A stretch of DNA of 35,685 nucleotides from Candidatus Lindowbacteria bacterium RIFCSPLOWO2_12_FULL_62_27 (GTDB lineage Bacteria > Lindowbacteria > 2-12-FULL-62-27). The stretch's first letter is position 1; each line of letters opens with the position of its first letter. The stretch is from assembly GCA_001784175.1 (NCBI GenBank), contig MFPR01000037.1:87959-123643 (forward strand), written 5' to 3'. Position numbers and translations under genes: made by a program. Below are positions 10,669-28,652 of the stretch, piece after piece. The notes under the pieces are model-generated. The model made no database searches, had not been told where the DNA came from, and saw only the letters and a list, made by a program, of their open reading frames with translations.

Positions 10669-10698
10669 CGCGGACATCCTACCATACGAGAAGCGTCG

Positions 10699-10784
10699 TG
10701 CCGGGGGCGGGAGTTGAACCCGCACGGCCCTTTCGGGCCACAGGATTTTAAGTCCTGAGCGTCTGCCAATTTCGCCACCCCGGC
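10699..10784 (-). tRNA. tRNA-Leu (anticodon UAA)
   Basis: The 86-nt minus-strand cloverleaf has acceptor gccgggg/ccccggc, anticodon loop CTTAAAA on a 5-bp stem (UAA), a long variable arm typical of class II tRNAs (gtggcccgaaagggccgt), and the T-arm ggttcaactcc. The 3' CCA is not encoded. Confidence 0.96.
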
Positions 10785-12050: not shown

Positions 12051-12074
12051 CAACGCGCCGAAAATCATTCGGCG
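12045..12074 (-). terminator. Terminator hairpin at the stop codon of the TPR gene
   Basis: A perfect 7-bp stem (12056-12062 with 12068-12074) has a 5-nt loop that begins, on the minus strand, with the TGA stop codon. It is followed by the T-rich run gttgttgttt, which also forms the -35 region of tRNA-Thr. Confidence 0.5.
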
Positions 12075-14161
12075 TTCACAGGCGCGCTCCTATTGCGCGT
12101 CTGTTTGGATCGGATTTTTTCGGCGCGGGACCTGTAATATTCGGCCGAGAGGTTGCCGGTTTTTCGGTAGAGTTTGGCGAGGTTTTCCAAAATGGCGAGC
12201 AAATCGGGATGCTCCGGTCCAAGGAGGGTTTCTTTAATCTCCAGCGCCCGGCGAATCAAGGGTTCGGCGTCGGCATACCGGCGCTGGCTGTAATAGACGG
12301 CGGACAGATTCACCAGCGTCGTCGCCAATTCACCGTCGGTTTTCCCCCGCGCCCCTTCCTGGATGGCCGCCAGGCGTTTGAACACCACCTCGGCATCCGG
12401 ATGGCGGCGCAGATTCAGGTACAAATCTCCCAAATTGGCCAGGACATTTTCCATCAGCGGATGATTCGAACCCAGTGATTTCTCTCTGATCGCCAATGCC
12501 TGCTTGTAAACGTCTTCGGCCTCTGCGGAGCGTCCCTGATGGGCGTACATCCATCCCAGATTACTGAGCGCCGAAGCGATCTCGACATACTCGGGGCCGT
12601 GGGCCTTCTCCCACATTCTCGCCGCCCGCTTGAACATGACTTCGGCTTGCACGTACTGTGTGCGATCCCGATGGATCACGCCGAGGTTGTTCAACCTGCG
12701 CGCGGTGTCCCGCTCGTGCCCCGGCGGCCAATGGGCCGACATCTCGACCAATCTTCCGTAGACGGCTTCCGCTTCCTTGTTTCTGCCCGGTTTGCTGTAG
12801 ATGACCTCCAAATTTTGCAGGATCATTAATATATCCGGATCATTCGGATCGGGCCTGCGGTCTTTCTCCTTGACCTCCAACGCGCGCCTGTACAGGATTT
12901 CCGCGTCGTCCTGCCGTCCCTGTTTCATATGGAGACTTGCCAGGTTCAAGAGACACGCGACCCGCCGGTCCGGCCGGCCCGGGAAGCGTTCCTGGATGGC
13001 CAGCGCCCGCTGGGAGAAGGACAACGCCCGGTCGAAACGATTCTGGTTCATGTAAAAGCCGGAGATGTCGAGAAGGAGCGGCGTGAGGGCCGGGCTGTCC
13101 GGACCGGACAGGCCCTCTGACATTTGCAAAGCTTCCGCGTAAAGCAACTCGGCGCGGCCCGGGTCCCGGGTGGTGTACAGTCCCGCCAGCGCGACCATGC
13201 TCTCCATCACCAAGGGGTGGGCGGGTCCGAGCGACTTCTTTCTGAGTTCCAGCGCCCGCGACAGATGTTGATGCGCGTCTGAATAGCGTTCCATTGAAAC
13301 ATCCGTTCGTCCAAGTCGATCGAGGGCGTCCGCGTCGTCCGTCGCGGCCGACGCGCGGGTGACTGTGTCCCCCGGCCTCTTTTTCCGTGTTTGCGGCGCG
13401 GGGACAGACTTGTCCGTGACAATCCACGTGTCCGACGTGAACTGCAAATCATACGACACGCTCGAATGGGCTTTGAGGACCAGTTGCAATCCCCTGTTTG
13501 CATGGTTGGGCGGATAAACGCCGTCCTCCAGGCGGAATATTCTTTCGTACGGGACACCGGTGTCAAAGATCGCGGCGATTTCATGTTCCCCCGTCCGCCT
13601 GTGGCGGATCGTGACCCGCCGGAGGGTCGCGACCGGATTCGATGGGATCCAGTACGAGTTCAGTTTTTGAAGCCACCCTGTATCATTCCTGTAAAAGAGA
13701 ACCTCGTTTGTGCCGTCGCCGTGCCGCAGAAATCGAATCACATAGCCCGTCCGGTCGCCCGTCCGCTTGTTGGCTCTGGGACCGTAGGGGAATGGGGTCA
13801 GCAAAAAGCCGCGGCCCGGGCCCGCCGCATAGCAGACAAATGCGCTGTTCGACACGTCCGCTCCGCCGCCCATGAAGTTCATCTCGATATCCCGCTCGTC
13901 CGGAATGGCGGATGTGGCCGGCAGGGCGCACTCGAGGCCCACGGGTTCGCTGTTGGGGGCGGTCGTGTAATGGAACACGATCCGGCCATTTTCGATTCGA
14001 TGGTTCGAGAAGTCGGACCGATAGAGGTCCTTGTTCAGCGGATGATCCGTGTCGAAATCTTCCCGGAAAATGACGCCCGCTCCCGCCCGGCTCGCGAAGA
14101 AAAGAATGCCGCATACAAGAACCAGGCAAGGGATGTGACGAAAGAGACCCAGTTGATGCAC
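12065..14161 (-). CDS. Secreted tetratricopeptide (kinesin-light-chain-type) repeat protein
   Basis: The 698-residue protein has a signal peptide (about 1-28, ending SRAGAG). A beta-rich N-terminal domain of about 230 residues follows (EDFDTDHPLNKDLY..., LamG-like in style but not assignable). From about 275 to 670 there are roughly nine 42-residue TPRs of the kinesin-light-chain form, such as RRALEIKETLLGPEHPDL. TPR arrays mediate protein-protein contacts, and this one would act outside the inner membrane. The start is GTG, with an extended -10 7 nt upstream and no Shine-Dalgarno. It is divergent from the barrel-like gene at 14234. No enzyme domain is seen. Confidence 0.85.
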   Translation of the reverse strand: MHQLGLFRHIPCLVLVCGILFFASRAGAGVIFREDFDTDHPLNKDLYRSDFSNHRIENGRIVFHYTTAPNSEPVGLECALPATSAIPDERDIEMNFMGGGADVSNSAFVCYAAGPGRGFLLTPFPYGPRANKRTGDRTGYVIRFLRHGDGTNEVLFYRNDTGWLQKLNSYWIPSNPVATLRRVTIRHRRTGEHEIAAIFDTGVPYERIFRLEDGVYPPNHANRGLQLVLKAHSSVSYDLQFTSDTWIVTDKSVPAPQTRKKRPGDTVTRASAATDDADALDRLGRTDVSMERYSDAHQHLSRALELRKKSLGPAHPLVMESMVALAGLYTTRDPGRAELLYAEALQMSEGLSGPDSPALTPLLLDISGFYMNQNRFDRALSFSQRALAIQERFPGRPDRRVACLLNLASLHMKQGRQDDAEILYRRALEVKEKDRRPDPNDPDILMILQNLEVIYSKPGRNKEAEAVYGRLVEMSAHWPPGHERDTARRLNNLGVIHRDRTQYVQAEVMFKRAARMWEKAHGPEYVEIASALSNLGWMYAHQGRSAEAEDVYKQALAIREKSLGSNHPLMENVLANLGDLYLNLRRHPDAEVVFKRLAAIQEGARGKTDGELATTLVNLSAVYYSQRRYADAEPLIRRALEIKETLLGPEHPDLLAILENLAKLYRKTGNLSAEYYRSRAEKIRSKQTRNRSAPVNAE

Positions 14162-14233: not shown

Positions 14234-15148
14234 ATGAAGAAGCGCATTGTTTGCGCCGCATGTATATGGATTTTAGCGTGGTCCGTCGTGGTCGAGTCAG
14301 GACGGGTCCGGGCTGACGACGAAGGCCAGCTCCGGCGGGTCGAGGACAAGGCCAACCGCCCGAAGGAGACGTCGCCGGAAGAGGCGGCGCGGCAGGCCGC
14401 GGCCGAACGCAAGGAACTGGAACGGCAGCGGCGCCGGGAAGAGGAGCGGGAACGGTGGCGGCGCGCGCATCCGGGCGAGCGGACGCCGGAGGGGGTGGGG
14501 GGCGACGGGTCCGACTGGATCTGGAGCGACCTCGCCATGATCGGGCTGATCGCGCCTTTTGCCGGGCCTTATTATCTGCTGGACGACCGTTACGATGAGC
14601 CGGTAGGGTTCGAAGCCTATCCGTTCGCCGATGACGCGGAAGGGTGTACCCGCCGGGACGGCCGCGACTGGCTGATGCAGACCCATCTTTCGATCCAGAG
14701 CGTTTCCGGAAACATTCTGGCGACGCGCGCCGACGGGTCTCTGAATTTCTGGCAGCGGCTGGCCCTCGAGGGCGCGTACAGCCGGTATGAGGAGCGGCTG
14801 AAAAATCACACGGAGATTCTGCGCCTCCGCGAGGCGCTCGTGACGTTCATGTTCGCGCAAAACGAGTTTCTGGATTTTCGTGCCGGCGTCGGATCCCAAG
14901 CCATCGATGGCCGGAATTTGAACACGGGCGTCAAGTGGGTTTACCGGATCCGGTGGTTTCACCGGCCGTTTCAATTCAATCTTGACCTTGGCGTCACGAC
15001 GAATCTGGGGGCGTCGACGCTGTCCGAAATCTCACCGGGCGTGGGCTGGCACGTAGGCCGCTTCGAGTCGCGCCTGAGTTACCGGCGCCTCAAAATCTCC
15101 GGCGACCGGCTCGCCGGGCCTGAACTGTCGGTCCGGGTCTGGTTTTAG
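14234..15148 (+). CDS. Putative outer-membrane beta-barrel protein with charged N-terminal region
   Basis: The 304-residue protein is not recognised by name. It has a signal peptide (1-27, ending VRA), then a highly charged, coiled-coil-like segment (about 30-85, rich in E, R and K). The C-terminal half has alternating polar/hydrophobic strands with aromatic girdles and ends in VRVWF, a terminal phenylalanine typical of BAM-inserted barrels. The start is supported by aaggggg 5 nt upstream. It converges on the large TPR-CRTAC1 gene with only 7 bp between the stops. Barrel assignment is inferred from strand pattern and the C-terminal residue. Confidence 0.6.
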   Translation: MKKRIVCAACIWILAWSVVVESGRVRADDEGQLRRVEDKANRPKETSPEEAARQAAAERKELERQRRREEERERWRRAHPGERTPEGVGGDGSDWIWSDLAMIGLIAPFAGPYYLLDDRYDEPVGFEAYPFADDAEGCTRRDGRDWLMQTHLSIQSVSGNILATRADGSLNFWQRLALEGAYSRYEERLKNHTEILRLREALVTFMFAQNEFLDFRAGVGSQAIDGRNLNTGVKWVYRIRWFHRPFQFNLDLGVTTNLGASTLSEISPGVGWHVGRFESRLSYRRLKISGDRLAGPELSVRVWF

Positions 15149-15155
15149 CGCAAGC

Positions 15156-18100
15156 CTACTCCAGATTCGACACGTGTCGCGTGTGCCAGACGCGATCGTC
15201 GTGTTTCCGCCGGGCGCCGTCGGGTGGCCGGGGAGGCGGATAGGCCGTCATGTTGTGATACGGCATGGGATCGACGGAATCCGGGAAGGCTGTATATAGG
15301 TCCATATCCTTGCAGTATCCGTCGGAATGCAGGACGAACGTGCGTGTCCAACCCGGCGGAATCGCCGGAAGGCCCGCCGCGTCAAAGGACAGAACGATTT
15401 CCTCGCCGCGCCCCATGATCACAAACCGGTCGTCCACGTCTTTCAGCAGGTCGCGCACGTCGCCGAACCGGGTGAATCGTCCTTCCATGTTTTTGAACGG
15501 CACGCCCTGATCGATTCTGTCATAATCGTACAACGTAGGGTCGTCGCCGTCGGGAGAATACTCGCGCGGATAGCCCAGATATCTGAGATCGGCGGAAACG
15601 GGCCGGAGAACGCGCCGCCGAATGGCTGCGGCGGGGGTTTCCGTCCCGACGAATATCTGGTCCCAGTAAATCTCCATGTTCGTGTGGATGCGCATCCGCG
15701 CGTCTGCGCGGAACGGAAGGGCTGTGATGTCGAACGTCATCATTCGCGGCAGGCCCGCGGGGAACCCCATATCGGCCACGGCCGTTTTCCAGCCGCCTTT
15801 CCCGTCCGGTATTTCGATCCTCGGCGGTGACATCGCAAGGCCCGCCTGATGGGCGGCGTAGTTGACATGCGAGTAGGTGTACTCGACCCATCCATGGAGA
15901 CAGAGCACCAGCGTGTCTGCTGGAGACAGGCGCCGCAGTTCATCGCCGAAATTCACTTCGATCCAGTGGTCGTGGGCGTATCCGACGAACCGGCTGTCTT
16001 TTGGAGGCTCGGCATAGCGGCGGTCAACGGAACGAATCCTGTCAAGGACATCCCCGCCGCCTGACGCTCGCGCAGAGACGGGAAAGATTCGCCGGGACAA
16101 CAGAATCGGCCGGCCGGTCGGCGCGGGTTCCACGCCGCCGAACCGTTCATCCGGGAAAATCTCAATGTTTTCCGGATGGTCGTAGGCGATCAAATAGAGC
16201 TGATCCATCCAAGTGACTTCTTCGAGAGGTTCTGCGACTCGCAGAAGATACCGGCCGTCCCGCGGGGCGATCATATCTCGCGGAATGAGCACCCGCTCCG
16301 TGGGATCAGGTGGGCCGTAGACGCCGGGAGACAGGAAGAATCCGACGCCGCCCACGCCGAGGAAATCGGTGACGAACGAAAATCGAGCGCCATCCCACGC
16401 GAAGAGAATCGGGCAGGACGAAGGTTTTCGATGGATCTTGACGATGCCCCACCGCTGGTTCGCCGGCACCTCCAGCTCGCTTTGAATGACCCCGTCCGGC
16501 CACGCGAGCCGCACGTAATCGGCCTTGACGCGCGCCCCCAGCCCGAAATGAACCTGAGGCGGCGGCGATCCGAGATAGCCGGCCGACTGCGTCACCTGGG
16601 CCGCTTGAATCGACCTGCCGGTTTTGATCTCGACTCCGAGCCCGGCCACGCCTGCATCCGGACAGCGCACATCGTCTTCCGAGGATTTCAACGGCACCAC
16701 CGTCAGCCAGTGCCCGTCCGGTTTGGTTTGCGCACGCCATATCTCAGGGCGCATGCCGGCGCGGGCCGTGACGATTTCGAGTACGCCGTCGCCGTTCAGA
16801 TCCAATGCGAGCGCTCCGCGCGCCGTGGGCGTCGCGCGGGTTGATCCCAATCGCGCCGGCGGCGCGAATTGGCCCATCCCCGCATTCATGAGAATGCGGT
16901 GGGCGTAACTTCTCTTCGAGCCGGCGTCGAGCAATACGATGTCCGCATCGCCATCGAGATCAAGATCAGCGGCCATGGCGCCTGCCGATCCGCCGAGTTC
17001 CGCCGCCCGTTCAGCAAACACCCTGTCTTCGACGAACCGTCCACGGTCCACATTCAAGAACAATCGCGGAGGCGCCGGGCCTCGGATCAAAAGGATGTCC
17101 AGCCGCCCGTTTTGATCGACGTCGGCTGTGACCGCGCCCATGGACGGCGCGGCGTCGGACAAATCAGGGAAACGGTCTGTCGCATCGGTGTACTGGCCGA
17201 CGCGATCGTTCAGATAAATGCGGTTGGGGGAGCCGGAATTGAGGAGGCAAATATCCAGGTCCCGATCGTCGTCCATATCGAAAAACAAAACGCCCACCGT
17301 CACCGCCTGCCCGCCCTCGAGGCGCGCCTCGGGGGCAACGTCCGTGAATGTGCCGTCGCCGTTGTTTCTCCAGAGCGTGTTGGGAGCGCCGGCAGACAAT
17401 CCGGCCGCGGAACGCGCCGCGGCGTTCGCCACGTACAAATCAAGATCCCCGTCATGGTCGGCGTCGGCCCATGCGGCGCCGACACTGAGGGTCTGTCCGC
17501 CTGCCGTCCGGGTTTGCGCGGTCACGTCCGTGAATCGGCCGGCGTCGGAGACGCCGGCACTTGGGGCGTCGGAGACGCTGACCCGGCCGGCGTCGTTTCG
17601 GTACAACCGGTTGGGGCCATCACAGGTCAGATAGAGGTCGGGATCTCCGTCGCCGTCATAATCTCCGAAAAATGCGCCCACGGCGTTCCTGCCGTCGATT
17701 CCGCTGTTCGGAACAATGGAGAAACGCCCATTTTGAAGACGGTACAACGCGCCTACATGATCGGGGCCCGCGCCGGGAATGTACACCGACAACTCTCCGC
17801 GCCCCTCCAGATCGGATGCTGCGAGACCTGGCCCGAAGGCGGGTGCGTCCATTCGGCTGGATTCCGCAGGCATGCCGGGGACGGCGCCGTTATCAGCATT
17901 CAGTTGCGCATCGGCGGAGATGTCGGCGTAGTCGGGCGGCTCATCCCGTCCCTGCGATGGTTCCGGCGAAAAAGCGCGAAGTATGTCGGCGTACCGGCCC
18001 ATTTCTCCATATTTCATTCCCGCAGCGACGCCGGCCCCGGCCGTCTTGAGCGCCCGAAATCTCTGCATAAGCTCACGGGCCCTCTCGATTTCTCCGGCTT

Positions 18101-18686
18101 CACGGAGAAGGGTGACGAGGCGGTAGCAGGCGGATTCGTGGTGCGGCGCCTGGTCGAGAGTTTGCTCAAAGTGCCTCCGCGCCGCCGCCGGATCGCGGTC
18201 GGTCATGAGGACGCCCATCTGATAGTGCGCGTCCGCGTCGCCGGAATCCACCGCCAGCACTGCTTCAAACTCCCGCGCGGCCTCGCGCGCCCGGTTCAGA
18301 TGCTTGAAGAGCATGCCGAGAGCGAACCGGGCGTGGGCGTCGGAGGGGTCGATGCCGATGAGCCGGGACAATTCCTGTTCGGCCCTGGCGTAACCGGATT
18401 CTGTCTGGGTGTTGAGAAGCGCGACGCCAAGATTCAATCGCCCGGCACTCCAGTCAGGGGCGATTCGTACGACCTCCTCAAAGGCCTTCACCGCCTCCTG
18501 CGGGCGGTACTGGTCCATCAGCGCGACGCCGCGATTAAAGGGCGAGAAGATGCTGTCGATTTGGGCGGGCGGAATGCCCACAGTGGATGGATCGAGTCTC
18601 CCGGCCGGTTCAGGAGGATGCTCATGTTCGTACGAGGACGGCTCTCCACAGCCCGCCATGGCGATCCCAAAGATCAAGACGATCAT
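15156..18686 (-). CDS. TPR - CRTAC1 (VCBS/ASPIC-UnbV) lipoprotein with a large extra C-terminal region
   Basis: This is a 1176-residue predicted lipoprotein: MIVLIFGIAMAGCGE gives a lipobox at Cys13. In order it has TPRs (about 30-250), a run of VCBS/FG-GAP calcium-loop repeats (about 300-660, for example FGDYDGDGDPDLYLTC and ADADHDGDLDLYVAN), an ASPIC/UnbV domain (about 690-770), and about 400 residues I cannot assign (from SCPILFAWDGARFSF to the end). A frame open further upstream would overlap the preceding gene, so the ATG at 18686, 23 bp after that gene's stop, is used. It is the last gene of the cytochrome/porin cluster. It probably sits on the outer membrane or cell surface as a binding scaffold; the function is inferred only. 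Confidence 0.85.
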   Translation of the reverse strand: MIVLIFGIAMAGCGEPSSYEHEHPPEPAGRLDPSTVGIPPAQIDSIFSPFNRGVALMDQYRPQEAVKAFEEVVRIAPDWSAGRLNLGVALLNTQTESGYARAEQELSRLIGIDPSDAHARFALGMLFKHLNRAREAAREFEAVLAVDSGDADAHYQMGVLMTDRDPAAARRHFEQTLDQAPHHESACYRLVTLLREAGEIERARELMQRFRALKTAGAGVAAGMKYGEMGRYADILRAFSPEPSQGRDEPPDYADISADAQLNADNGAVPGMPAESSRMDAPAFGPGLAASDLEGRGELSVYIPGAGPDHVGALYRLQNGRFSIVPNSGIDGRNAVGAFFGDYDGDGDPDLYLTCDGPNRLYRNDAGRVSVSDAPSAGVSDAGRFTDVTAQTRTAGGQTLSVGAAWADADHDGDLDLYVANAAARSAAGLSAGAPNTLWRNNGDGTFTDVAPEARLEGGQAVTVGVLFFDMDDDRDLDICLLNSGSPNRIYLNDRVGQYTDATDRFPDLSDAAPSMGAVTADVDQNGRLDILLIRGPAPPRLFLNVDRGRFVEDRVFAERAAELGGSAGAMAADLDLDGDADIVLLDAGSKRSYAHRILMNAGMGQFAPPARLGSTRATPTARGALALDLNGDGVLEIVTARAGMRPEIWRAQTKPDGHWLTVVPLKSSEDDVRCPDAGVAGLGVEIKTGRSIQAAQVTQSAGYLGSPPPQVHFGLGARVKADYVRLAWPDGVIQSELEVPANQRWGIVKIHRKPSSCPILFAWDGARFSFVTDFLGVGGVGFFLSPGVYGPPDPTERVLIPRDMIAPRDGRYLLRVAEPLEEVTWMDQLYLIAYDHPENIEIFPDERFGGVEPAPTGRPILLSRRIFPVSARASGGGDVLDRIRSVDRRYAEPPKDSRFVGYAHDHWIEVNFGDELRRLSPADTLVLCLHGWVEYTYSHVNYAAHQAGLAMSPPRIEIPDGKGGWKTAVADMGFPAGLPRMMTFDITALPFRADARMRIHTNMEIYWDQIFVGTETPAAAIRRRVLRPVSADLRYLGYPREYSPDGDDPTLYDYDRIDQGVPFKNMEGRFTRFGDVRDLLKDVDDRFVIMGRGEEIVLSFDAAGLPAIPPGWTRTFVLHSDGYCKDMDLYTAFPDSVDPMPYHNMTAYPPPRPPDGARRKHDDRVWHTRHVSNLE

Positions 18687-18709
18687 CGCCGAAGTTTCAT
18701 TCGACCTGC

Positions 18710-20389
18710 TCAATCCGGTTCCTCCATCACCACCAGCGTGCCGGCCGCCGCCGGAGCCGAAGAGCTTTTGCCCGACGGCCAGATCACGTCGATCGAGGCC
18801 GCGGATTCGTCGGCCCGAAGACCCACATGGACGGTGGGATCGCTCGCGCTCAGATACGAAGCGGCGGTTCTGACTTCGTTGTGAATGGCGCGCGTATCGG
18901 TCCGGACGACCACTTTCGCGCCGATGCCCTGCGTGTTGGGCGCGCGGCCATGCAGTCGGATCTTGAGCCATCGCGCGCCGGCGGGGGTTTCATTACGCAA
19001 AAGTTCCGCCCACGATCCGGAATTGGAGGCCAGGATGTCGATGTCGCCGTCGTTATCATAATCTCCGAAGGCCGCCCCGCGGCCGACGCGTTTGCGCACG
19101 AAACATTCTCCGCAGCGGTCGGCGGCGTTTTCGAAGGTCCCGCGTCCGGTGCCGACAAACATCATCTTTTGCTGCGGATAGGTGATCTCCTGCGAGAATC
19201 CCTCTATGTCATCCACCACATGCCCGTTGGCCACAAAGCAATCCAGGTGGCCGTCGTGATTGAAATCGGCGAATCGCGCGGCCCAGCCCACGTGCCGGTA
19301 GGTGTCCTCATCGAGGCCCAGGGCGCGGGTCAGATCCGCGAAGAACCCGTTGCCCCGGTTCACGTAGAGATTGTTGAATTCAAACACCATGTTCGTGACG
19401 AACAGGTCCTGAAGGCCGTCGCCGTTCACGTCGACGACGTCGACCCCCATCGCCGCCGTGACGACGCCGTCCGGATCGTATGCCACTCCGGCCTCAACGC
19501 CGATTTCCACGAACATGCCTCCCTCATTCCGATACAGGAAGTTGGGCGTGGCGTCGTTCGCGACAAACACGTCCTGGTCACCGTCGTTGTCGAAGTCCAG
19601 CGCCACGGCCGTCAGGCCCTTGCCGTTCGCGGAGAGTCCCGCGGACGCGGACACATCGGTGAACGTCCCATCGCCGTTGTTGCGGTACAGAACATCCTCC
19701 TCGCCCTCAAAATCGCGCGGGCCGGGGAAGGATCGGAATCCGTATTTTTTGGAGAGCGTTGAGACATGGACGTCCTTGCGGTTGACGAGAAATTTGAGGT
19801 AATTCGAGACATAGAGATCGAGGTCGAGGTCCCCGTCGTAATCGAAGAAGACCGCGCCGGCGCTCCACCGCGGGCAACCTACGCCCGCCCGGTCGGTCAC
19901 GTCCTCAAACGTCCCGTCGCCGCGGTTGCGGTAGAGGGTATTGCGGCCGAAGTTCGTGATGTAGAGATCGACGAATTCGTCGGCGTCGTAGTCGGCCGTC
20001 GCAACGCCCTGCCCGTAGCTGGCCGCCGTGATCCCCGCCGTTTCCGTGACGTTGCGGAAGGTCCCGTTTCGCTCGTTGTGAAACAGGGCGTGAGTCGCGG
20101 CATTCCTGCGGTCCATCAACCCATGTTTGTCGAGTTTCGCGCCGTTGACCAGGAATGCGTCGAGCCGGCCATCGTTGTCGTAATCGAAAAAGGCGCACCC
20201 TGAACCCGTGGTCATAAGGACATTCTCGTTTTGTTCCGCCCCGAAGGTATGCCGGAACACGATCCCGGCCGATCGCGCGATGTCCGTGAATTTCGGCGGC
20301 GGGTCGGCGGCGGCCGTCGCCGCACAAACCGCCGTGATGGCGACCGTCATCCACAGCCATCGAAACCCCGCGATCCTCATTCCTTTCAC
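18710..20389 (-). CDS. Secreted CRTAC1-family protein (VCBS/FG-GAP repeats plus ASPIC/UnbV)
   Basis: The 559-residue protein has a signal peptide (about 1-28, ending ATAAA). VCBS/FG-GAP-like repeats follow from about 35 to 450, each with a D-x-D-x-D-G-x-x-D loop (FFDYDNDGRLDAFLVNG, ATADYDADEFVDLYITN). The C-terminal ASPIC/UnbV domain is at about 475-545 (GAKVVVRTDTR, ASYLSASDP, IDVIWPSGK). Such proteins are predicted calcium-binding beta-propellers outside the cell; no reaction is established. The start overlaps the stop of the porin gene by 4 bp (ATGA), so translation is coupled. An ATG at 20380 is an alternative start. Confidence 0.9.
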   Translation of the reverse strand: MKGMRIAGFRWLWMTVAITAVCAATAAADPPPKFTDIARSAGIVFRHTFGAEQNENVLMTTGSGCAFFDYDNDGRLDAFLVNGAKLDKHGLMDRRNAATHALFHNERNGTFRNVTETAGITAASYGQGVATADYDADEFVDLYITNFGRNTLYRNRGDGTFEDVTDRAGVGCPRWSAGAVFFDYDGDLDLDLYVSNYLKFLVNRKDVHVSTLSKKYGFRSFPGPRDFEGEEDVLYRNNGDGTFTDVSASAGLSANGKGLTAVALDFDNDGDQDVFVANDATPNFLYRNEGGMFVEIGVEAGVAYDPDGVVTAAMGVDVVDVNGDGLQDLFVTNMVFEFNNLYVNRGNGFFADLTRALGLDEDTYRHVGWAARFADFNHDGHLDCFVANGHVVDDIEGFSQEITYPQQKMMFVGTGRGTFENAADRCGECFVRKRVGRGAAFGDYDNDGDIDILASNSGSWAELLRNETPAGARWLKIRLHGRAPNTQGIGAKVVVRTDTRAIHNEVRTAASYLSASDPTVHVGLRADESAASIDVIWPSGKSSSAPAAAGTLVVMEEPD

Positions 20390-21558
20390 CGCCCGTAATA
20401 GACGAACGTGAGATACACCGCGTCGCTCTTCGGCGCCATGACGCGGTTCGCCTCCTCGCGATAGGCCAAAAAAACGCTGACGGCGTTGGTGAACGAGTAA
20501 CTGAATTGATAGAGGGCGGCGGTGTCGTCGGAGTTGTGAGTGGAGGTGTCCCTTCGAACCGATTCAACCTGCCATGAGAGACCGGCATTTTGAAACCGCG
20601 GGATGATCCACTCCAGCGTCGCGCGCACGCCGAGCACGTTCGATCTTTGCCCGCCGGTGACCGCGACATACTGCGCGTCGTCGCCGAATCCGTCCTGTCC
20701 GCAGGCGACTTGGCCGCTCAGGATCAGATAATCTCCGGACCGGCGGAAAAGGTCATACGCGACGCGCCAGCGCGAGATGGACGCAGCGCCGAACACGGAC
20801 GGCCCCATGATGGCCGGCAAATCGCCGACCAGGATCGACAGGCCGTTTTGAATGTCCCAGTAGGTCGGCGCGCCCAGCCGGGCTGTGAGCAGGAAGCTCG
20901 TGCGTTCGGAAGCCGTCGACAGGCGCGGCGAGTGCAGCCCTTCGCCCAGACCCAATGTCGCCGCCGCCTCCCAGTCCAATTTTCCGAGCGGGCCTTTGAT
21001 ATTCAGCCCCCAGTCCCATTTCAGCCCGAGGTCGGCGGCCTCGAGCGGCAGAAGAAACCGGTGCCGGGGCGCCGTCATCGGATTCATGCCGTACGGAATG
21101 ACGAACTGTCCGAGCCTCAGGCTCAGCCGCTGCGAGCCGCCCGGATTCCATCGGATCCAGAAATCCTGCGGCGCGAACTTCACGGCGTTCATGCCCCGGT
21201 TGTCCTGCATCCGGTCGTACACGATGCGCGGGTGAAGTGTCATGGCCTCCAGCGGCATCCAGCCGCCGAATATCCGGCGATTGAGGAGTGACTCGGTTGA
21301 GAACGTCCTGACGTAGTCGAGCCCGATGGAATTACCCGGCGGTCGAGGCGACAGCTCAACGTAGTCTTTCGACCGGTCGCCCGGCGGCAGGCCTGTCGCG
21401 CCGTCGAGCGGGAACACGGCTGAGGACACGAATTCAAGGTACAAAAACGATCGACGCACTCCCTCCTCATCCGCCGGAACCGCAGCGCAGGCCGCATGGA
21501 CGACCGCCGCGATCAGAAGAACGGTTGTCACAGGCCGTGCGTGCCGGACTTTCGTCAT
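20386..21558 (-). CDS. Predicted outer-membrane porin
   Basis: The 390-residue protein has a signal peptide (about 1-28) and a repetitive amphipathic beta-strand pattern to the end. The segment SLRLGQFVIPYGMNPM resembles phosphate-selective porin O/P-type barrels, where a conserved GQF-x-P-[FY]-G occurs. Paired strands such as DLGLKWDWGLNIKG and a final strand YLTFVYYGR support a 14-18-stranded barrel. The start overlaps the preceding TPR gene by ATGA and the stop overlaps the next gene. Within the operon it is the only candidate for a channel across the outer membrane. Substrate or electron-conduit use is not shown by sequence. Confidence 0.75.
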   Translation of the reverse strand: MTKVRHARPVTTVLLIAAVVHAACAAVPADEEGVRRSFLYLEFVSSAVFPLDGATGLPPGDRSKDYVELSPRPPGNSIGLDYVRTFSTESLLNRRIFGGWMPLEAMTLHPRIVYDRMQDNRGMNAVKFAPQDFWIRWNPGGSQRLSLRLGQFVIPYGMNPMTAPRHRFLLPLEAADLGLKWDWGLNIKGPLGKLDWEAAATLGLGEGLHSPRLSTASERTSFLLTARLGAPTYWDIQNGLSILVGDLPAIMGPSVFGAASISRWRVAYDLFRRSGDYLILSGQVACGQDGFGDDAQYVAVTGGQRSNVLGVRATLEWIIPRFQNAGLSWQVESVRRDTSTHNSDDTAALYQFSYSFTNAVSVFLAYREEANRVMAPKSDAVYLTFVYYGR

Positions 21559-22394
21559 GGCGCGACTCGGACGGGTTGGCGCTCGCGGATGGAATGCAGA
21601 AACCAGTCGAGCCGCCGGTATTCGTCGTCCACCTTGATTTTTGTGACACCGGTTTCCTCCCAGCTCGATATCCCGGACCAGTACGGCGTCAGGAGACTCA
21701 AGCGGCCGGCGCCTTCGGCCGGAGGCGCGGACTCTCTTCCCGCTTGGATGGCGCGCTTAAGGCGGATTGCAGCCGCAACCGCGTCTCCTTCCAACCAGAA
21801 CAGGTAGCCGGCGAGGTAAAATGCGCCGCCGCATTTGGAATTCGATGCGGCCGCCGCCTCAAGATAACGCCGCGCGCGGGATATGTTTCCGCGCAAAAGG
21901 GCGATCTCCCCGATCCTGAGCACGGCGCCGGACTCCTCCTTGTTGATATCGAGCGCCTTCTCGAATTCCCTTTCCGCCTCCGCCGGCTCGAAGGGCGCGC
22001 CCGCAACGCCGCATGAGAAGAGCGCGCCGAGCTGGGCATGCGCCCTGGCGCTGGACGGATTGATTTCCGCCAGCCGGCGCCATGTCTCCGCCGCCTCGGC
22101 GAATCGCCCGAGTTCGAACAGAACATTGCCGAGGTTATACAGGGAATCTTCGTGCCCGGTGTCCAGCCCCAGCGCGGCGTGGTACGCAGCGTCGGCGCCG
22201 GGCCAGTCGCCTTGCAGCCGAAACCGGGTGGCCTGATCATACAGCTTCCAAAACTGCAGAACTTCCGCCTTTCGGTCCGGCGACCACGCCGGGGAAGGAA
22301 CGGGATCAACTGCGGATGGCCGCATTTTGAGAATGGTCAGAATGATGAATCCCGTGGCAAACCCCAGAGCGAGAAACCCCGCCGCGCGCTTCAC
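21555..22394 (-). CDS. Membrane-anchored tetratricopeptide repeat protein
   Basis: The 279-residue protein has one N-terminal transmembrane anchor (about 3-23, FLALGFATGFIILTIL) and a periplasmic part. Four to five TPRs run between about 50 and 230 (SLYNLGNVLFELGRFAEAAE; ARAHAQLGALF; AVLRIGEIALLRGNISRA). A tail follows with two tryptophans (PYWSGISSWEETG). The start is GTG within a GTGA overlap with the upstream CRTAC1 stop; the open frame extends further upstream but overlaps a gene. TPRs of this kind often tether partner proteins, here perhaps the cytochrome or CRTAC1 proteins (inference). Confidence 0.85.
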   Translation of the reverse strand: MKRAAGFLALGFATGFIILTILKMRPSAVDPVPSPAWSPDRKAEVLQFWKLYDQATRFRLQGDWPGADAAYHAALGLDTGHEDSLYNLGNVLFELGRFAEAAETWRRLAEINPSSARAHAQLGALFSCGVAGAPFEPAEAEREFEKALDINKEESGAVLRIGEIALLRGNISRARRYLEAAAASNSKCGGAFYLAGYLFWLEGDAVAAAIRLKRAIQAGRESAPPAEGAGRLSLLTPYWSGISSWEETGVTKIKVDDEYRRLDWFLHSIRERQPVRVAP

Positions 22395-24250
22395 GGCCCG
22401 TCCATGCCAATCGCCGGCGCTCGGCTGCCCGGCTCCGTGATCGTCACGATCTGATCGGCGCTGACCCATTCCAGCGTCTGCGTCCGTCCGCTTGGCCATG
22501 CGACGTCGATCGCGTCGACGCGGTCCGCCGAACCCAGCCCGACCAGCACCTCTCTCGCGGCATTCTGAGAGCAGTACGAGGATCCGGCGCCAGATTCGCG
22601 GAGGTAGATATGCGTTCCCGCGCGGAACCGCAATTTCGCGCCGACGCCGTCCCTGTTTCCCTCCGTTCCTCGCAGACGGACTTTGATCCAATGATTGCGG
22701 TCCCCCCCATCATTTCGGAGAAGAATCGGGGCGTCACCGTGGACAACGATGAAGGCGTCCGGGTCGCCGTCATTGTCATAATCTCCGATCGCCAGCCCCC
22801 GGCCCACGCGCCGCGCCCGGAAGATTTCACCCGATACGGAGCCCACCTCATAGTAACCTCTTCCGGCCCCGGCATTCCAGAACAGCAGATTATTCATCGG
22901 CGCAAGCAGGGTGGAGTCGTCTTCGCGCGGAAAGGTGCTGCCATTCACGACCATGAGATCGAGCAGGGCGTCGTTGTCGTAGTCAAGAAACGCCGTGCCC
23001 CAGCCGATGTAATCCAGCGCGATCTGTCCAAGGCCATACTGGTCGGCAACATCCACGAATGCCAGCCCGCGCGATTTGCCCTCCATGCGCAAGTCCGCGT
23101 AATCGGAGGACATGTTGTTGTAGAGCGCGTTTTCCTGGGCAAGCCAGTGGGTGATGAAGATGTCCTGATCTCCGTCTACATCCCAGTCTCCCACCGCCAG
23201 ACCCATCGCGCCGCGGTAGTCGGCCACCCAGGCTCTGTGGCTGATGTCCTCGAAGGTTCCATCACCCCGGTTGCGGTACATCGCGTTGTCGGAAACATCA
23301 TTCGCGACGTAAAGATCAGTCCGGCCGTCATTGTCGAAATCCGCCCAGGACGCCGAAAGACTTCGCCCGGCGGGATTGTCAACGCCGGCGTCCCGGGCCA
23401 CTTCCGTGAATGTGCCGTCGCCGTTGTTGTGGAACAGAAGATTTCGCTCCGGCTTGTAGGTGGAAGGATTGAGAGACGCGGGAAGCACGGCGTCATATTG
23501 CCGGCTCTGCGTGTAGAGGTGCGCCTGCTCGAAACGGTACTGCACGTATCCACAGACGTACAGATCGAGCAGGCCGTCACTGTCATAGTCACCCCACGAC
23601 GCGCCGGTCCAGAAGCCCTCGAAACGGCCGATGCCCGAACGATTCGAGGCGTCGGCGAAGGCGCCGTCACCGTTGTTGTGAAAGAGGAAGGTGTGGCCGT
23701 AGTTTGTCACAACAAGATCGAGCAGACCGTCATTGTCGTAATCGCCCCATGCCGCTCCCTGGCCGACGCTTCGGACATCCAGTCCCGCCCGGAGCGTGAC
23801 ATCCGCGAACGTGCCGTCGCCGTTGTTCCGGTAGAGCGCGTGCCGAGCCGGCGATCGGGCGAACTCTTCCGGCGTCATGGTCAGGCTTCCGGCTTCGTTC
23901 ACGATAAAAAGATCGATCCAGCCGTCGTTGTCAAAATCGCCCCATGCCGCGCCCGATCCCATGTCTTCCGGGAGCTGGGTTGACCGGGTTCCGTGAAAAT
24001 GCCGAAACCGGATGCCCGCCGATTCGGTCACATCCAGGAAGGACACGCGCGGATAATTCGCCGGGGGATCGCGCGAAAGGGAATCGATGAGGCCCTCCAT
24101 TTTTTCGCCCGGCACATACGGTTTCGGCGCAGGTCCCCGCCATATCGCGACGGCGCTCGCGGCGATCGCCAGTCCGCCCAGTACCGCCGTCCGCATCAGA
24201 AGCCGCCGGCGCGGCGTGGGTTCTCCGGGACGCAAGGTCTTCCGAGTCAA
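22391..24250 (-). CDS. Secreted CRTAC1-family protein with possible Tat signal
   Basis: The 619-residue protein starts with a probable TTG that overlaps the cytochrome stop as TTGA. An ATG at 24196 is the alternative. With the TTG start the N-terminus contains TPRRRLLMRTAVLGGLAIAA, a twin-arginine-like stretch and hydrophobic core, hinting at Tat export. VCBS/FG-GAP repeats run from about 55 to 500 (AWGDFDNDGWIDLFIVN, AWGDYDNDGLLDLVVTN, SWADFDNDGRTDLYVAN). An ASPIC/UnbV domain spans about 520-605 (GVGAKLRFRAG, VDAIDVAWPSGR). It is the second gene of the operon, directly after the cytochrome. Calcium binding is suggested by the repeat loops; the role is unknown. Confidence 0.88.
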   Translation of the reverse strand: MTRKTLRPGEPTPRRRLLMRTAVLGGLAIAASAVAIWRGPAPKPYVPGEKMEGLIDSLSRDPPANYPRVSFLDVTESAGIRFRHFHGTRSTQLPEDMGSGAAWGDFDNDGWIDLFIVNEAGSLTMTPEEFARSPARHALYRNNGDGTFADVTLRAGLDVRSVGQGAAWGDYDNDGLLDLVVTNYGHTFLFHNNGDGAFADASNRSGIGRFEGFWTGASWGDYDSDGLLDLYVCGYVQYRFEQAHLYTQSRQYDAVLPASLNPSTYKPERNLLFHNNGDGTFTEVARDAGVDNPAGRSLSASWADFDNDGRTDLYVANDVSDNAMYRNRGDGTFEDISHRAWVADYRGAMGLAVGDWDVDGDQDIFITHWLAQENALYNNMSSDYADLRMEGKSRGLAFVDVADQYGLGQIALDYIGWGTAFLDYDNDALLDLMVVNGSTFPREDDSTLLAPMNNLLFWNAGAGRGYYEVGSVSGEIFRARRVGRGLAIGDYDNDGDPDAFIVVHGDAPILLRNDGGDRNHWIKVRLRGTEGNRDGVGAKLRFRAGTHIYLRESGAGSSYCSQNAAREVLVGLGSADRVDAIDVAWPSGRTQTLEWVSADQIVTITEPGSRAPAIGMDGP

Positions 24251-26268
24251 CGCCTCACGATCAGTATCGTTTTTGTGTCCTCCGCCATCGAACTGACGGT
24301 CGCCGTCAGTCCGGACGTTTCGCCCATGAGAAAATTGAGGAGGAACTGGTCGATCTTGCGGTAGAGCAGTCGGGCGTTCACGTGCATGCGGCCCGGAGAA
24401 TCGGGGGGCGAAGGAAAGCTGTACCCGGCGGCGTCGGCAAATCCGGGGAAGACCGACCGCCTGAACCGCACACCGACCATCTCCCACAGATTGTGCCGGT
24501 CGATCAGGTTTCCGTACTGGTCCACCGCCTCGGCCTTGAAGATGAACGAGCCGGGTTTGATGAAATGCCGGGTGTCCAGATCGCCCGATTTGTACACGAT
24601 CCCGCCGCTGTCGTCCGTCACGGTCAGCTCAACCCACGACTGGATGATGTCGAGCGGGCCGGTCGGAAAATCGTGGCCGACCTTGTTGTTGGTGATCACC
24701 ACCCGGACCGGTGTCTGCTCGCCGGGGGCGACGCGGTCGGGAGCAACCAATTCGATGGGAGTGGCGGGTCCCTCGCGCCATTTATGCGCGATTTCGTTCA
24801 CCGGGATTTCCCCGCGCAGCCAGCGGACCGTGAGGTCGTGGTGCTCGTCGGCGCCCGGGAGGGCAAGGAGTTTCGGCATGAACTGGTTGGCGCCGAGGAA
24901 ACGGTGACTTCGGTGTTTGCCGTCCGACGCCGAGCGGTTGTAGTCGAGATCATCGCCGGCGGCCGGCTCGCGCGAGCCGTCCACCAGGGGCATGTGACAC
25001 TCGCGACATTCGATGGTGCGCGCGGCGTCTTTCCCGTGGTTCCACCGGCTCTTGCGCCAGTTGTCGTACTGGTTCTGGAGCTGGACCCATCCGACGTTGT
25101 TGATTTCAGCGTCAATGAACTGCTTGTGGCATGCTGCGCAGAATTCGGGGCTCTTGAACAGCCGGTGACTCAGGCTCTCCGTGTGCTGCCGCGGATAGGC
25201 GCGAATCAAGAAGTCCCGCAGGAAGCGCGACGCCGTCCCCTGCTTCAATTCATACATATACCGCGGCGGCTGAACGATCACGTAATTCGCGTTGCCCTTG
25301 ATGTCCGTTTTCCGGATGGAATGGCAGACCAGACAGGAGACGCCCTCCTGGTAGCCGGCAAGATTGGTCAGATTTTCCGAAAAGACGTTTTTCGCGCCGG
25401 AAAACAGCGAGATCGGATCGTGACACCCGCCGCAGTAGCGCGTCGATTCCGGACTGTTCTGTTTTCCCATGACAGCTTGCACCGCCTGAAACGCCGGGTC
25501 CATCGCCGAATATCGGTGGGCGCTCGGCTGCCACTCGCGTACGATCTGGTCGTGACAGCGTGCCGTGCCGCACGAGAGAGACCCGGAGATCGAGCGTGCG
25601 TCGAATGCGCCGCTGTCGGAGGTCGTCGCGAGGCTCGGGCCGAACGGGCGGTCCCTGCCGTACTTGTAATTGTAATCCGCCGGAAACTCGTTCTTGAACT
25701 TCACTTCATCGTAACCATAGGTCCATAGCCCGACCAGACATACGCCGGCGGTTGTCACCAGCACAACGCCCTGCCCGAACCGCTTTTGCGATTCACCGAC
25801 CGGCGTCCCATGTCCGGCGCCCCGTGCCTTCCGGTCCCTCGTGATAATCAGCGTGACGTGGGGAACGATGGCGGCGATCAGGGCGAACGTGCTGACCAGG
25901 TGAACGCGGTCCCAGAAGTGGCTGATCCGCGTGAGAAAGAGCGCCTGAATCATCACCACGATACCCGACGCGCCGCAGACGGCCGCGGATGCCAGGGAAA
26001 AGTATCCCGTAAGCTTGAAATGACTCATCAGGGCGGGCTGGTACACCCGCCAGTGCCGGATCTGGTACACGACGTAAAGAACCGCAAACCCGACGCTGGC
26101 GATCGTGTGGACCAGTACGGAGACTTGGGCGACGAAACTGAAGGGCAGAAAGGTGATGGCGAGTCCCGTCAGAGTCTCGAGGAGCAGCAGTCCCGATACG
26201 AGGATCGCAAGAGGCGAATCCCATTCGGCCGCGCGGTCGACGGTTGAAACATACCTTTCATCGTTCAT
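24247..26268 (-). CDS. Fused di-heme cytochrome b-like / multiheme cytochrome c protein
   Basis: The 673-residue protein has five transmembrane helices (about 19-41, 48-68, 89-112, 122-144, 165-184); positive loops put the N-terminus inside and the rest in the periplasm. Helix 2 has His54 and His72, helix 4 His123 and His137 (H-x13-H), fitting two transmembrane b hemes. The periplasmic part has five c-heme motifs: one CX4CH (CGTARCH, 233-239) and four CXXCH (CGGCH 279, CLVCH 312, CAACH 377, CRECH 421). A beta-rich C-terminal domain has VGHDFPTGP (about 530), common in multiheme cytochromes. This resembles in plan Geobacter CbcL, a quinol-oxidising b/c fusion. Start 26268 has ggaag 5 nt upstream; 26280 is an alternative. 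It is the first gene of the operon. Confidence 0.9.
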   Translation of the reverse strand: MNDERYVSTVDRAAEWDSPLAILVSGLLLLETLTGLAITFLPFSFVAQVSVLVHTIASVGFAVLYVVYQIRHWRVYQPALMSHFKLTGYFSLASAAVCGASGIVVMIQALFLTRISHFWDRVHLVSTFALIAAIVPHVTLIITRDRKARGAGHGTPVGESQKRFGQGVVLVTTAGVCLVGLWTYGYDEVKFKNEFPADYNYKYGRDRPFGPSLATTSDSGAFDARSISGSLSCGTARCHDQIVREWQPSAHRYSAMDPAFQAVQAVMGKQNSPESTRYCGGCHDPISLFSGAKNVFSENLTNLAGYQEGVSCLVCHSIRKTDIKGNANYVIVQPPRYMYELKQGTASRFLRDFLIRAYPRQHTESLSHRLFKSPEFCAACHKQFIDAEINNVGWVQLQNQYDNWRKSRWNHGKDAARTIECRECHMPLVDGSREPAAGDDLDYNRSASDGKHRSHRFLGANQFMPKLLALPGADEHHDLTVRWLRGEIPVNEIAHKWREGPATPIELVAPDRVAPGEQTPVRVVITNNKVGHDFPTGPLDIIQSWVELTVTDDSGGIVYKSGDLDTRHFIKPGSFIFKAEAVDQYGNLIDRHNLWEMVGVRFRRSVFPGFADAAGYSFPSPPDSPGRMHVNARLLYRKIDQFLLNFLMGETSGLTATVSSMAEDTKTILIVRR

Positions 26269-26344
26269 GACCGCTTCCATTCGTGACAGATGTTGTCATC
26301 ACGTGCAACGGCGGTAAACGACGTATTTTGCGCATGAAATTCGC

Positions 26345-26394: not shown

Positions 26395-27654
26395 CTAGGT
26401 TAACTCCATCACTTCCCGCCGCTCTGCCTGCGCCATCCGCCGCGCGCGCGCCAGATCGGCGGGGGTGTCGATGCCGATCGAATCATGGGGCGTGACGGCG
26501 ATGGCGATCGATTGTCCGTTTTCGAGGATGCGCAACTGCTCGAGTTTTTCCGCCTGCTCCAACGGCGTCTCGCGCCACTTGGAAAATTCGACCAAAAACG
26601 ACCGGCGAAAGACATAAAGGCCGATGTGTTTGAACCATTTCGCCGCCTTCGACCTCTGCGTGTCGCGGTAGAATGGGACCGGGCTTCTCGAGAAATAGAT
26701 CGCGCGGCCCTTTGAGATCGCCACTTTCGCGACGTTCGGATTTTGCAGATCTTTGACGGGGCACCTCGCCGCCAGCGTCGAGACAGGGCAAGCGGAGGAG
26801 AGGAGCGTTCGGACGGCGAGGCGAATGTTGAATGAGGGCTGAAACGGCTCGTCTCCCTGGAGGTTCACGACCACCGGATACGCCGGAAAATACTGCGCCG
26901 TTTCCGCGCACCGGTCGGACCCGCTCTTGCACGTCCTGGACGTCATGACCGCCGTCGCGCCGAATCCATGGGCCGCCTTGAGGATCCGCCGGTCGTCCGT
27001 GGCCACCACCACCTTCCAGTCCGGCAGGGCCGCCTGGCAGGCTCTTTCGTAGACATGTTGAACGATCGGTTTGCCGTCCAGGGTCGCCAGAGCCTTGCCG
27101 GGGAATCGCGTCGATCCGTATCGGGCCGGAATGACGATGAGCGTTGGCTGCGGCAGGCGGGCTCGCATGGGATAAACCTGCGGGACGGCCCGGACCTTCT
27201 CAATGATGCTCGAGGTGCTTCGCCCCGGTGTGAGCTGCACGCGGACGACTTTCCCGCCATAGGACCGGGCCACATCGGCCCCCACGATGTCTTTTTCGCT
27301 CCAGTCCGCGCCTTTGACGAGGACGTCCGGCCGGATGGCCTGAATGAGTTTGAGCGGTGTGTCCTCCGAAAAGGGAATGATGTAATCGATCATCCGCAGC
27401 GCCGACAGGATCGCCGCGCGATCCGCCAGCGTCGCCACCGGCCGCGCCGGTCCCTTGAGGCGGCGGACGCTGTCATCGGAGTTCAGGCCGAGCACGAGAA
27501 TGTCTCCGCACAGTTTGGCCTTGTTGAGATACTCGACGTGTCCCCGGTGGAGGATGTCGAAACAGCCGTTGGTGAACACGACTTTCTTTCCGGCGCGCTC
27601 GGACTTCAGCCGCCGGGCCAGTTGCGGCAGGTAGTAGAATATTCTCGCGGACAT
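26395..27654 (-). CDS. Fusion: heptose-1-phosphate adenylyltransferase (RfaE2) - CMP-Kdo synthetase (KdsB)
   Basis: The 419-residue protein has two enzymes. Residues 1-158 are an RfaE2/HldE-C nucleotidyltransferase: NGCFDILHRGHVEYL with HxGH at 36-39, and GRSTSSIIEKVR at 144-155. It makes ADP-heptose from D-glycero-beta-D-manno-heptose 1-phosphate. Residues 170-412 are KdsB (CTP:Kdo cytidylyltransferase): VIPARYGSTRFPGKAL, KSGSDRCAE, NLQGDEPF, YFSRSPVPFYRD, FKHIGLYVFRR, EKLEQLRILENG, GIDTPADL. Both halves look intact. The usual partner of RfaE2, the heptose kinase, is the separate gene 23 bp upstream. No Shine-Dalgarno is seen. Both products feed LPS inner-core synthesis in the cytoplasm. Confidence 0.93.
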   Translation of the reverse strand: MSARIFYYLPQLARRLKSERAGKKVVFTNGCFDILHRGHVEYLNKAKLCGDILVLGLNSDDSVRRLKGPARPVATLADRAAILSALRMIDYIIPFSEDTPLKLIQAIRPDVLVKGADWSEKDIVGADVARSYGGKVVRVQLTPGRSTSSIIEKVRAVPQVYPMRARLPQPTLIVIPARYGSTRFPGKALATLDGKPIVQHVYERACQAALPDWKVVVATDDRRILKAAHGFGATAVMTSRTCKSGSDRCAETAQYFPAYPVVVNLQGDEPFQPSFNIRLAVRTLLSSACPVSTLAARCPVKDLQNPNVAKVAISKGRAIYFSRSPVPFYRDTQRSKAAKWFKHIGLYVFRRSFLVEFSKWRETPLEQAEKLEQLRILENGQSIAIAVTPHDSIGIDTPADLARARRMAQAERREVMELT

Positions 27655-27677: not shown

Positions 27678-28652
27678 TCAAACCGCCTCGAGGATTTCCT
27701 TCGGCGACGCCACCGCCGTGCCGATTTTCCCGACCACGATGCCGGCCGCGAGGTTCGCGATCTCGAGCCCTGTTCGGAGATCCAGCCCGGCGGCCAGCGC
27801 GAGACCGCAGACGGCGGTGACCGTGTCGCCGGCGCCGGTCACGTCGAACACCTCGCGCGCGCGCGTCTGAATGTGCGTCACGCGGTTGTTCGGCTCAAAA
27901 AGACTCATGCCCTGCTCGCCGCGGGTGATGAGAAGCGCGTGGAGGTTGAGTTTCTTTCGGATGGTTTTTCCGGCCGACTCGATCTCGGCCTGGGTCCGGA
28001 GTTTCCGGCCCAGCGATTCGCCGGCCTCCTTGGTGTTGGGCGTGAGGAGCGTGACCTTCTGATAGGACCAGAAATTCTGGAGCTTGGGATCGGCGACGAC
28101 CGGCAGGTTCAGCCGGCCTGCGTGGCGGATCAATCTATTGAGAACAGGCTGGCAAATGGCGCCCTTGCCGTAATCCGAAATCACGATCGCGTCGGTGCTC
28201 TTCATCGCCTCCACCAGGCTCCGGCACATCGACTCGATCGTTTCCGCTTCCGGCCGGCCCCGCACTTCGCGGTCAATCCGCACCATCTGCTGGCTGCCGG
28301 CGATGACCCGCGTCTTGCGGATCGTCGGCCGATCGAGGGACATGGAGGCGCGAAGAACAATTCCGATCGACTCGCACTGCTTTCGGACTTGATCCGCAAA
28401 GCCATCCTCTCCGAGAACTCCGATCGCGGTGGGCCGGCCGGCCAGCGCGGCGATGTTGGCCGCCACGTTCAGCGCGCCGCCCAGCCGGTACGACTCCTCG
28501 CGAACTTCAACCACGGGCACCGGCGCTTCCGGCGATATGCGCTCCACGCCGCCCCACACGTAATGGTCGAGAATGAAATCGCCGACCACCAGCACGCGGC
28601 GGTTCTGAAACCGGGCCAGAATTTTTGAAACTGCAGTGCGTGTCAATTTCAT
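27678..28652 (-). CDS. rfaE1: D-glycero-beta-D-manno-heptose-7-phosphate kinase (RfaE1 / HldE N-terminal type)
   Basis: The 324-residue PfkB-family sugar kinase phosphorylates heptose 7-phosphate at C1 for ADP-heptose and LPS core synthesis. HldE-type signatures are present: GDFILDHYVWGGVERISPEA, PVPVVEVREESYRLGGALNV, QQMVRIDRE, the ISDYGKGAI loop and the C-terminal DVTGAGDTV with the catalytic aspartate. Length equals the kinase half of E. coli HldE. It is the first gene of a two-gene unit with the RfaE2-KdsB fusion. A TGGACA-18-TACAGT promoter ends 8 nt before the ATG and there is no Shine-Dalgarno. Confidence 0.93.
   Translation of the reverse strand: MKLTRTAVSKILARFQNRRVLVVGDFILDHYVWGGVERISPEAPVPVVEVREESYRLGGALNVAANIAALAGRPTAIGVLGEDGFADQVRKQCESIGIVLRASMSLDRPTIRKTRVIAGSQQMVRIDREVRGRPEAETIESMCRSLVEAMKSTDAIVISDYGKGAICQPVLNRLIRHAGRLNLPVVADPKLQNFWSYQKVTLLTPNTKEAGESLGRKLRTQAEIESAGKTIRKKLNLHALLITRGEQGMSLFEPNNRVTHIQTRAREVFDVTGAGDTVTAVCGLALAAGLDLRTGLEIANLAAGIVVGKIGTAVASPKEILEAV

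Follow-up and report, generated by a model that had tools for sequence, protein, structure and literature searches.

In CbcL of Geobacter, an N-terminal nine-haem c part is followed by a C-terminal b part. Proteins of the CRTAC1 (ASPIC/UnbV) type are widespread in bacteria but, to our knowledge, lack a settled function. The fold of penta-haem cytochrome c552 has been grouped with Geobacter ExtKL, with possible five-coordinate haems and with no clear function assigned to c552 (PMC11976967). In the available extract of a report on hydrazine-synthase-like clusters, a CRTAC1-family gene stands beside multihaem redox proteins, some of them with cytochrome c554 domains (PMC12758564). Here we analyze a 35,685-nucleotide stretch (the window) of contig MFPR01000037.1 from Candidatus Lindowbacteria bacterium RIFCSPLOWO2_12_FULL_62_27, which carries a six-gene cluster encoding a b/c cytochrome (CYT), two CRTAC1-type proteins, TPR proteins and a barrel-like protein. 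Three of these genes, for CYT, CRTAC1-A and an anchored TPR protein, form an invariant and widespread partnership between a b/c penta-haem cytochrome, CRTAC1 and TPR that is joined by repeated gene fusions. The redox complex to which this points is apparently undescribed: the open-access literature that we searched holds no description of a CRTAC1-cytochrome system, and subscription papers lay outside that search, so a prior description is possible.

A cytochrome-CRTAC1-TPR core recurs across phyla

The cluster comprises six open reading frames, all on the minus strand, at 15156-26280 of the window:

24247-26280, minus strand: b/c cytochrome (CYT), with five predicted transmembrane helices, a periplasmic penta-haem domain and a C-terminal immunoglobulin-like (Ig-like) domain
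22391-24250, minus strand: CRTAC1-A (CRA), with an N-terminal signal anchor, FG-GAP propeller and UnbV/ASPIC domain
21555-22394, minus strand: anchored TPR protein, TPR by Pfam, with an N-terminal hydrophobic anchor
20386-21558, minus strand: putative barrel-like, porin-like protein (POR), with a signal peptide and strand pattern and no Pfam family
18710-20389, minus strand: CRTAC1-B (CRB), with an apparently cleavable signal peptide, FG-GAP and UnbV/ASPIC
15156-18686, minus strand: TPR-CRTAC1 lipoprotein (TPC), 1176 aa, with lipobox MAGC, TPR, FG-GAP and UnbV/ASPIC, and a conserved C-terminal domain

From CYT through CRTAC1-A, TPR and the barrel gene to CRTAC1-B, successive genes overlap by TTGA, GTGA, ATGA and ATGA, and the TPC gene starts 23 bp after CRTAC1-B; the six genes and the junctions described in the first-pass annotation are thus confirmed. 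The Pfam domains over cut-offs are Cytochrome_C554 in CYT, FG-GAP_3 and UnbV_ASPIC in CRTAC1-A, CRTAC1-B and TPC, and TPR in the TPR protein and TPC. By themselves, 4-bp overlaps are an ordinary operon feature, and the part that exceeds chance is recurrence across loci. The cluster consists of two units, a three-gene core (CYT, CRTAC1-A, TPR) and a rarer outer unit (barrel, CRTAC1-B, TPC).

A search of the genome collection seeded by CYT alone, as an alignment of four cytochromes, returned 266 relatives, of which the best 80 were kept and their neighboring genes identified by translated search. Wherever the contig was long enough (at least 900 bp left for CRTAC1, at least 2.7 kb left for TPR; four loci end too early for the CRTAC1 test), CRTAC1 lay directly downstream of CYT (76 of 76 loci) and TPR followed CRTAC1 (63 of 63). 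These loci span at least 12 phyla by record titles, which are submitters' labels for metagenome bins and may in some cases be wrong; they name Gemmatimonadota, KSB1, Latescibacterota, Bacteroidota, Marinimicrobia, Poribacteria, Planctomycetota, Rhodothermota, Myxococcota, Acidobacteriota, Chloroflexota, Pseudomonadota, Verrucomicrobiota and Actinomycetota. Around the core, no other family was common to more than a few of the 80 loci, except further CRTAC1/TPC-type genes. In a separate whole-genome sample, CRTAC1 was found near 9 of 13 b/c-type loci and near none of seven soluble c-only relatives.

Gene fusions tie the core together further. In 33 rows of the comparison CRTAC1 and TPR are two genes, which frequently overlap by 4 bp like those of the window, and in 33 they form a single open reading frame; switches between the two states number 9 on the cytochrome tree and 7 on the CRTAC1 tree. 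In a distant subfamily, TPR is attached to the cytochrome C-terminus rather than to CRTAC1, and all three core parts are therefore linked by fusions. The cytochrome and CRTAC1 trees are congruent: their patristic distances have a correlation of r 0.92 (permuted maximum 0.15), and 32 of 65 splits are shared. Phylum labels change 14 times on the cytochrome tree against 36.9 times when shuffled, so descent was mostly within phyla. The first-pass annotation had named recurrence of the whole six-family block in unrelated lineages, with co-evolution, as support for a system: the three core genes do recur in this way, and the barrel gene was found beside them in 1 of the 80 loci. Its counter-scenario, cytochrome homologues that are never near CRTAC1, is contradicted by the adjacency in every testable locus.

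CYT joins a membrane b part to a penta-haem c part

Residue 5 of CYT corresponds to a nearly invariant Met in its relatives, and the true start is therefore probably 26268, as first annotated. The five predicted transmembrane helices (23-44, 49-80, 87-115, 121-153 and 159-189) all lie N-terminal to the c part. His 58 and 76 in helix 2 and His 127 and 141 in helix 4, spaced H-x17-H / H-x13-H, are invariant in 74-76 close-relative sequences; this is the usual pattern for two b haems, and CYT is predicted to bind two of them and to have a quinone site.

The c part contains five c-haem motifs, an unusual CX4CH (haem 1) and four CXXCH, which are invariant like the transmembrane His. In the broad alignment, His 255, 366, 459 and 536 are the sole invariant His outside the haem motifs and the transmembrane part, and His 456 and 596 are conserved in the close group only. 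Because only four further His are invariant family-wide, one of the five c haems may be without a conserved distal His; an open, potentially catalytic site is conceivable at such a haem, which we treat as a lead and not as a result.

In structural comparison, the whole c part superposes on PDB 5ze8, the penta-haem cytochrome c552 of Thermochromatium tepidum, with a VIA-align Z of 12.6 and a root-mean-square deviation of 4.6 over 322 residues. The CYT profile also matches c552 (E 2e-6), and the C-terminal Ig-like domains have an H-x2-PTG stretch in common. Foldseek alone gave no match at E < 0.001 for the CYT model or for that of the TPC C-terminal domain, and the 5ze8 match of CYT came from a second comparison with VIA; a PDB search with the A1 profile was swamped by TPR proteins. 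CYT is a membrane-fused relative of the PHC family and not a typical member, since typical members are soluble with a signal peptide and CYT has five transmembrane helices. Among three genomes of its phylum, only the window's genome has CYT.

Directly upstream of one core cytochrome with 45% identity (L040:3-8641) lies a run of genes for a cytochrome b, a 6-haem cytochrome, a molybdopterin oxidoreductase and a 4Fe-4S subunit. It occurs in one genome only and is a possible clue to the electron partner.

CRTAC1-A and TPR are predicted to be anchored in the inner membrane

In nearly all of the relatives shown, the N-terminus of CRTAC1-A consists of basic residues and a transmembrane segment followed by Y-x-PGE, and it lacks a lipobox. 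Judged by its sequence, it is an inner-membrane anchor that would place CRTAC1-A on the same face as the CYT c part. The sole PDB match of the CRTAC1-A profile is human CRTAC1 (9etn, E 8e-29). The hydrophobic anchor of the TPR protein was likewise read from its N-terminus.

The outer unit is rarer and recurs beside the core in one distant genome

POR has no Pfam family, and at E up to 1 it gave one chance-level match only; we call it barrel-like on its signal peptide and a strand pattern read by eye. The barrel gene was found beside the core in 1 of the 80 core loci (L074, titled Planctomycetota ARS63), where barrel (52%), CRTAC1-B (65%) and TPC (55%) stand in the same order as in the window. 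There the outer unit is divergent from the locus's own cytochrome-CRTAC1 pair, and a TPR match follows that pair. RpoB of this genome and that of the window's genome are 44% identical in a local alignment of 715 residues, whereas identity within the family of the window's genome is 85%. This distance is like that of other phyla, and the outer block is therefore shared between very distant lineages, through either transfer or strong constraint.

Barrel and CRTAC1-B are also adjacent in two Latescibacterota genomes, away from the core. In one of these they lie directly downstream of genes for cytochrome b561, a 16-haem protein, Rieske, cytochrome b, and 9- and 18-haem proteins, with 10- and 11-haem genes further upstream. 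Latescibacterota loci (L153/L157/L158) also carry tandem lipoprotein beta-propellers and a CRTAC1-B with a CarboxypepD_reg domain, near a bc-type multihaem cluster. Weak barrel matches in five other genomes (G180, G035, G211, G185 and G227) were in no case beside CRTAC1.

Of the 80 loci, 16 have the C-terminal domain of TPC (approximately residues 766-1176) in the neighborhood of the core. Its model (predicted local distance difference test, pLDDT, 86) has CBM32/discoidin-like jelly rolls as best matches, at Z 9.1, barely over background, which suggests a weak resemblance to carbohydrate-binding jelly rolls. Neither a PDB sequence search with this domain nor a search of viral contigs with TPC gave a match.

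A quinone-linked periplasmic complex is the favored reading

We favor, as moderately probable, a model in which the core proteins assemble at the inner membrane into a periplasmic redox complex that is linked to quinones and has CRTAC1 and TPR as obligate subunits; in this genome, outer-membrane parts would have been added to it. The two b haems, suggested by the four invariant transmembrane His, would exchange electrons with the quinone pool, and the penta-haem c552-type domain, recognized by its motifs and fold, would carry them in the periplasm. On the same face, the anchored CRTAC1 propeller and TPR, whose association with CYT is constant, may hold a partner or substrate at the penta-haem domain. 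In this genome and a few others, the barrel, secreted CRTAC1-B and TPC could extend the complex to the outer membrane and capture or admit the substrate. A more specific version, which we regard as tentative, is that the core defines a widespread and undescribed quinone-linked periplasmic enzyme class across a dozen phyla, with the CRTAC1 propeller as the substrate-binding or catalytic partner of an open-site penta-haem cytochrome.

Several points weigh against the model of one complex. It is what we infer from association, and the tree correlation is not proof of contact, because linked and mostly vertical inheritance also gives congruence. The best 80 of 266 loci under-sample divergent members, 4 of the 13 distant b/c loci have no nearby CRTAC1, and the AlphaFold2 model of CYT is of middling confidence (pLDDT 75).

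Most core loci have no outer unit, and barrel and CRTAC1-B stand away from the core in Latescibacterota, as would be expected if the two halves were functionally separate operon neighbors, one a redox core and the other a unit for binding or uptake at the outer membrane. We consider this doubtful, since the distantly related L074 has both units side by side, divergently transcribed, and the Latescibacterota outer pair again adjoins quinol-linked cytochromes. That same Latescibacterota multihaem cluster speaks for extracellular electron transfer, in which electrons from quinol would reach the periplasm through CYT, and the barrel with its CRTAC1 proteins would link them to an external mineral or partner, in either direction, via multihaem cytochromes encoded elsewhere. 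The CYT c part does have the fold of the family that includes Geobacter ExtKL (PMC11976967), and the window's genome encodes, on contig C30 at ~122-138 kb (L177, L178), a 1059-aa DmsE/decahaem-like cytochrome with 42 CXXCH motifs, near a 568-aa protein whose barrel-like C-terminus ends in F. This region, which also holds 6- and 9-haem proteins, propellers and a BchE-like B12 radical-SAM gene, is likely a separate multihaem chain. The genome further encodes haem-copper oxidases and an NrfA-type nitrite reductase, and together with the 42-haem cluster these indicate a probably respiring organism with several multihaem chains. Extracellular electron transfer through this cluster is nevertheless unlikely: the cluster has no outer-membrane or free periplasmic multihaem protein, the barrel was found in 1 of 80 core loci, and the haem-copper oxidases make oxygen respiration probably possible.

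It is more improbable still that CRTAC1-A and TPR are assembly or haem-attachment helpers, comparable to the TPR parts of Ccm/Nrf lyase systems, and not working subunits. The unusual CX4CH motif of haem 1 and a weak TPR_CcmH_CycH match in TPC-type proteins are in keeping with such a role, but TPR and CRTAC1 persist where haem 1 is a plain CXXCH (L041, L043, L044 and L048, with TPR there fused to the cytochrome), and Pfam finds no haem-lyase domain in the cluster.

Through the three-gene partnership, bacterial CRTAC1 proteins gain a consistent partner and a redox setting in which their role can be tested. If the model of a quinone-linked complex is true, an extra branch of the respiratory chain has been missed by annotation in many uncultured soil, groundwater and marine bacteria; the phyla with the partnership include Acidobacteriota, Gemmatimonadota, Verrucomicrobiota, Planctomycetota and Bacteroidota.

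Genomic surroundings of the cluster

As a background for the adjacency in 76 of 76 and 63 of 63 loci, the entire genome of 4.39 Mb has seven UnbV_ASPIC domains, and the cluster accounts for three of these. Open frames of ~9114 and ~3625 aa with UnbV_ASPIC domains lie on two other contigs of this genome (G000:C6, L185; G000:C12, L184). The called genes of the window include no other haem protein. A promoter and terminator scan was uninformative, with no promoter-like sites (shuffles mean 2.7) and 12 terminator-like sites against 11.9 expected.

Convergent with TPC and 7 bp from its end, 14234-15148 encodes a barrel-like protein with a signal peptide and C-terminal F and without a Pfam match. 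Just past the cluster, 12065-14161 encodes a 698-aa protein with many nephrocystin/TPR_12-type TPR repeats, and 10027-10725 combines DUF1573 and a helix-hairpin-helix domain in one protein. On the other side, 26395-27654 joins a cytidylyltransferase-like domain (RfaE2/HldE type) and a KdsB-type CMP-sugar transferase in one fusion protein, an unusual combination of heptose- and Kdo-type activation domains, and adjoins a PfkB kinase at 27678-28652.

Comparison with known systems

With its putative barrel-like protein near a probably quinol-linked cytochrome, the cluster resembles MtrCAB/Pcc conduits, but it has no periplasmic plug or surface multihaem cytochrome. The porin-cytochrome conduit raised in the first-pass annotation is rejected within this cluster on the lack of a periplasmic or outer-membrane multihaem partner, and the barrel was found beside a single one of the 80 cores. 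Of the quinol-linked surface redox system suggested there, the tie of the probably quinone-linked cytochrome to CRTAC1/TPR is supported by gene order and fusions and a conduit within the cluster is not, although a link to the outside may still exist. The description of CYT as a quinol-oxidizing b/c fusion of CbcL type was similarly half right: CYT is probably a quinone-linked b/c cytochrome, and CbcL likewise has a multihaem c part in one chain with a b-type membrane part, but CYT has its b part first, five c haems and a different, c552-type c fold. On this domain order and haem count we reject a CbcL-type assignment.

Human CRTAC1 (9etn) has the same FG-GAP propeller and ASPIC/UnbV domain as CRTAC1-A, whereas the bacterial protein is predicted to be anchored in the inner membrane and is encoded beside a cytochrome. 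The hydrazine-synthase-like clusters have other enzymes, and the extract of that report mentions no b/c penta-haem cytochrome or TPR partner (PMC12758564). With the PHC family (T. tepidum c552 5ze8, ExtKL, Gsu2801 and cable-bacteria sPHC/lPHC), CYT has in common five haems, the same fold and a C-terminal Ig-like domain. Unlike these, CYT carries a b-type membrane part N-terminal to its penta-haem domain and is always found with CRTAC1 and TPR genes.

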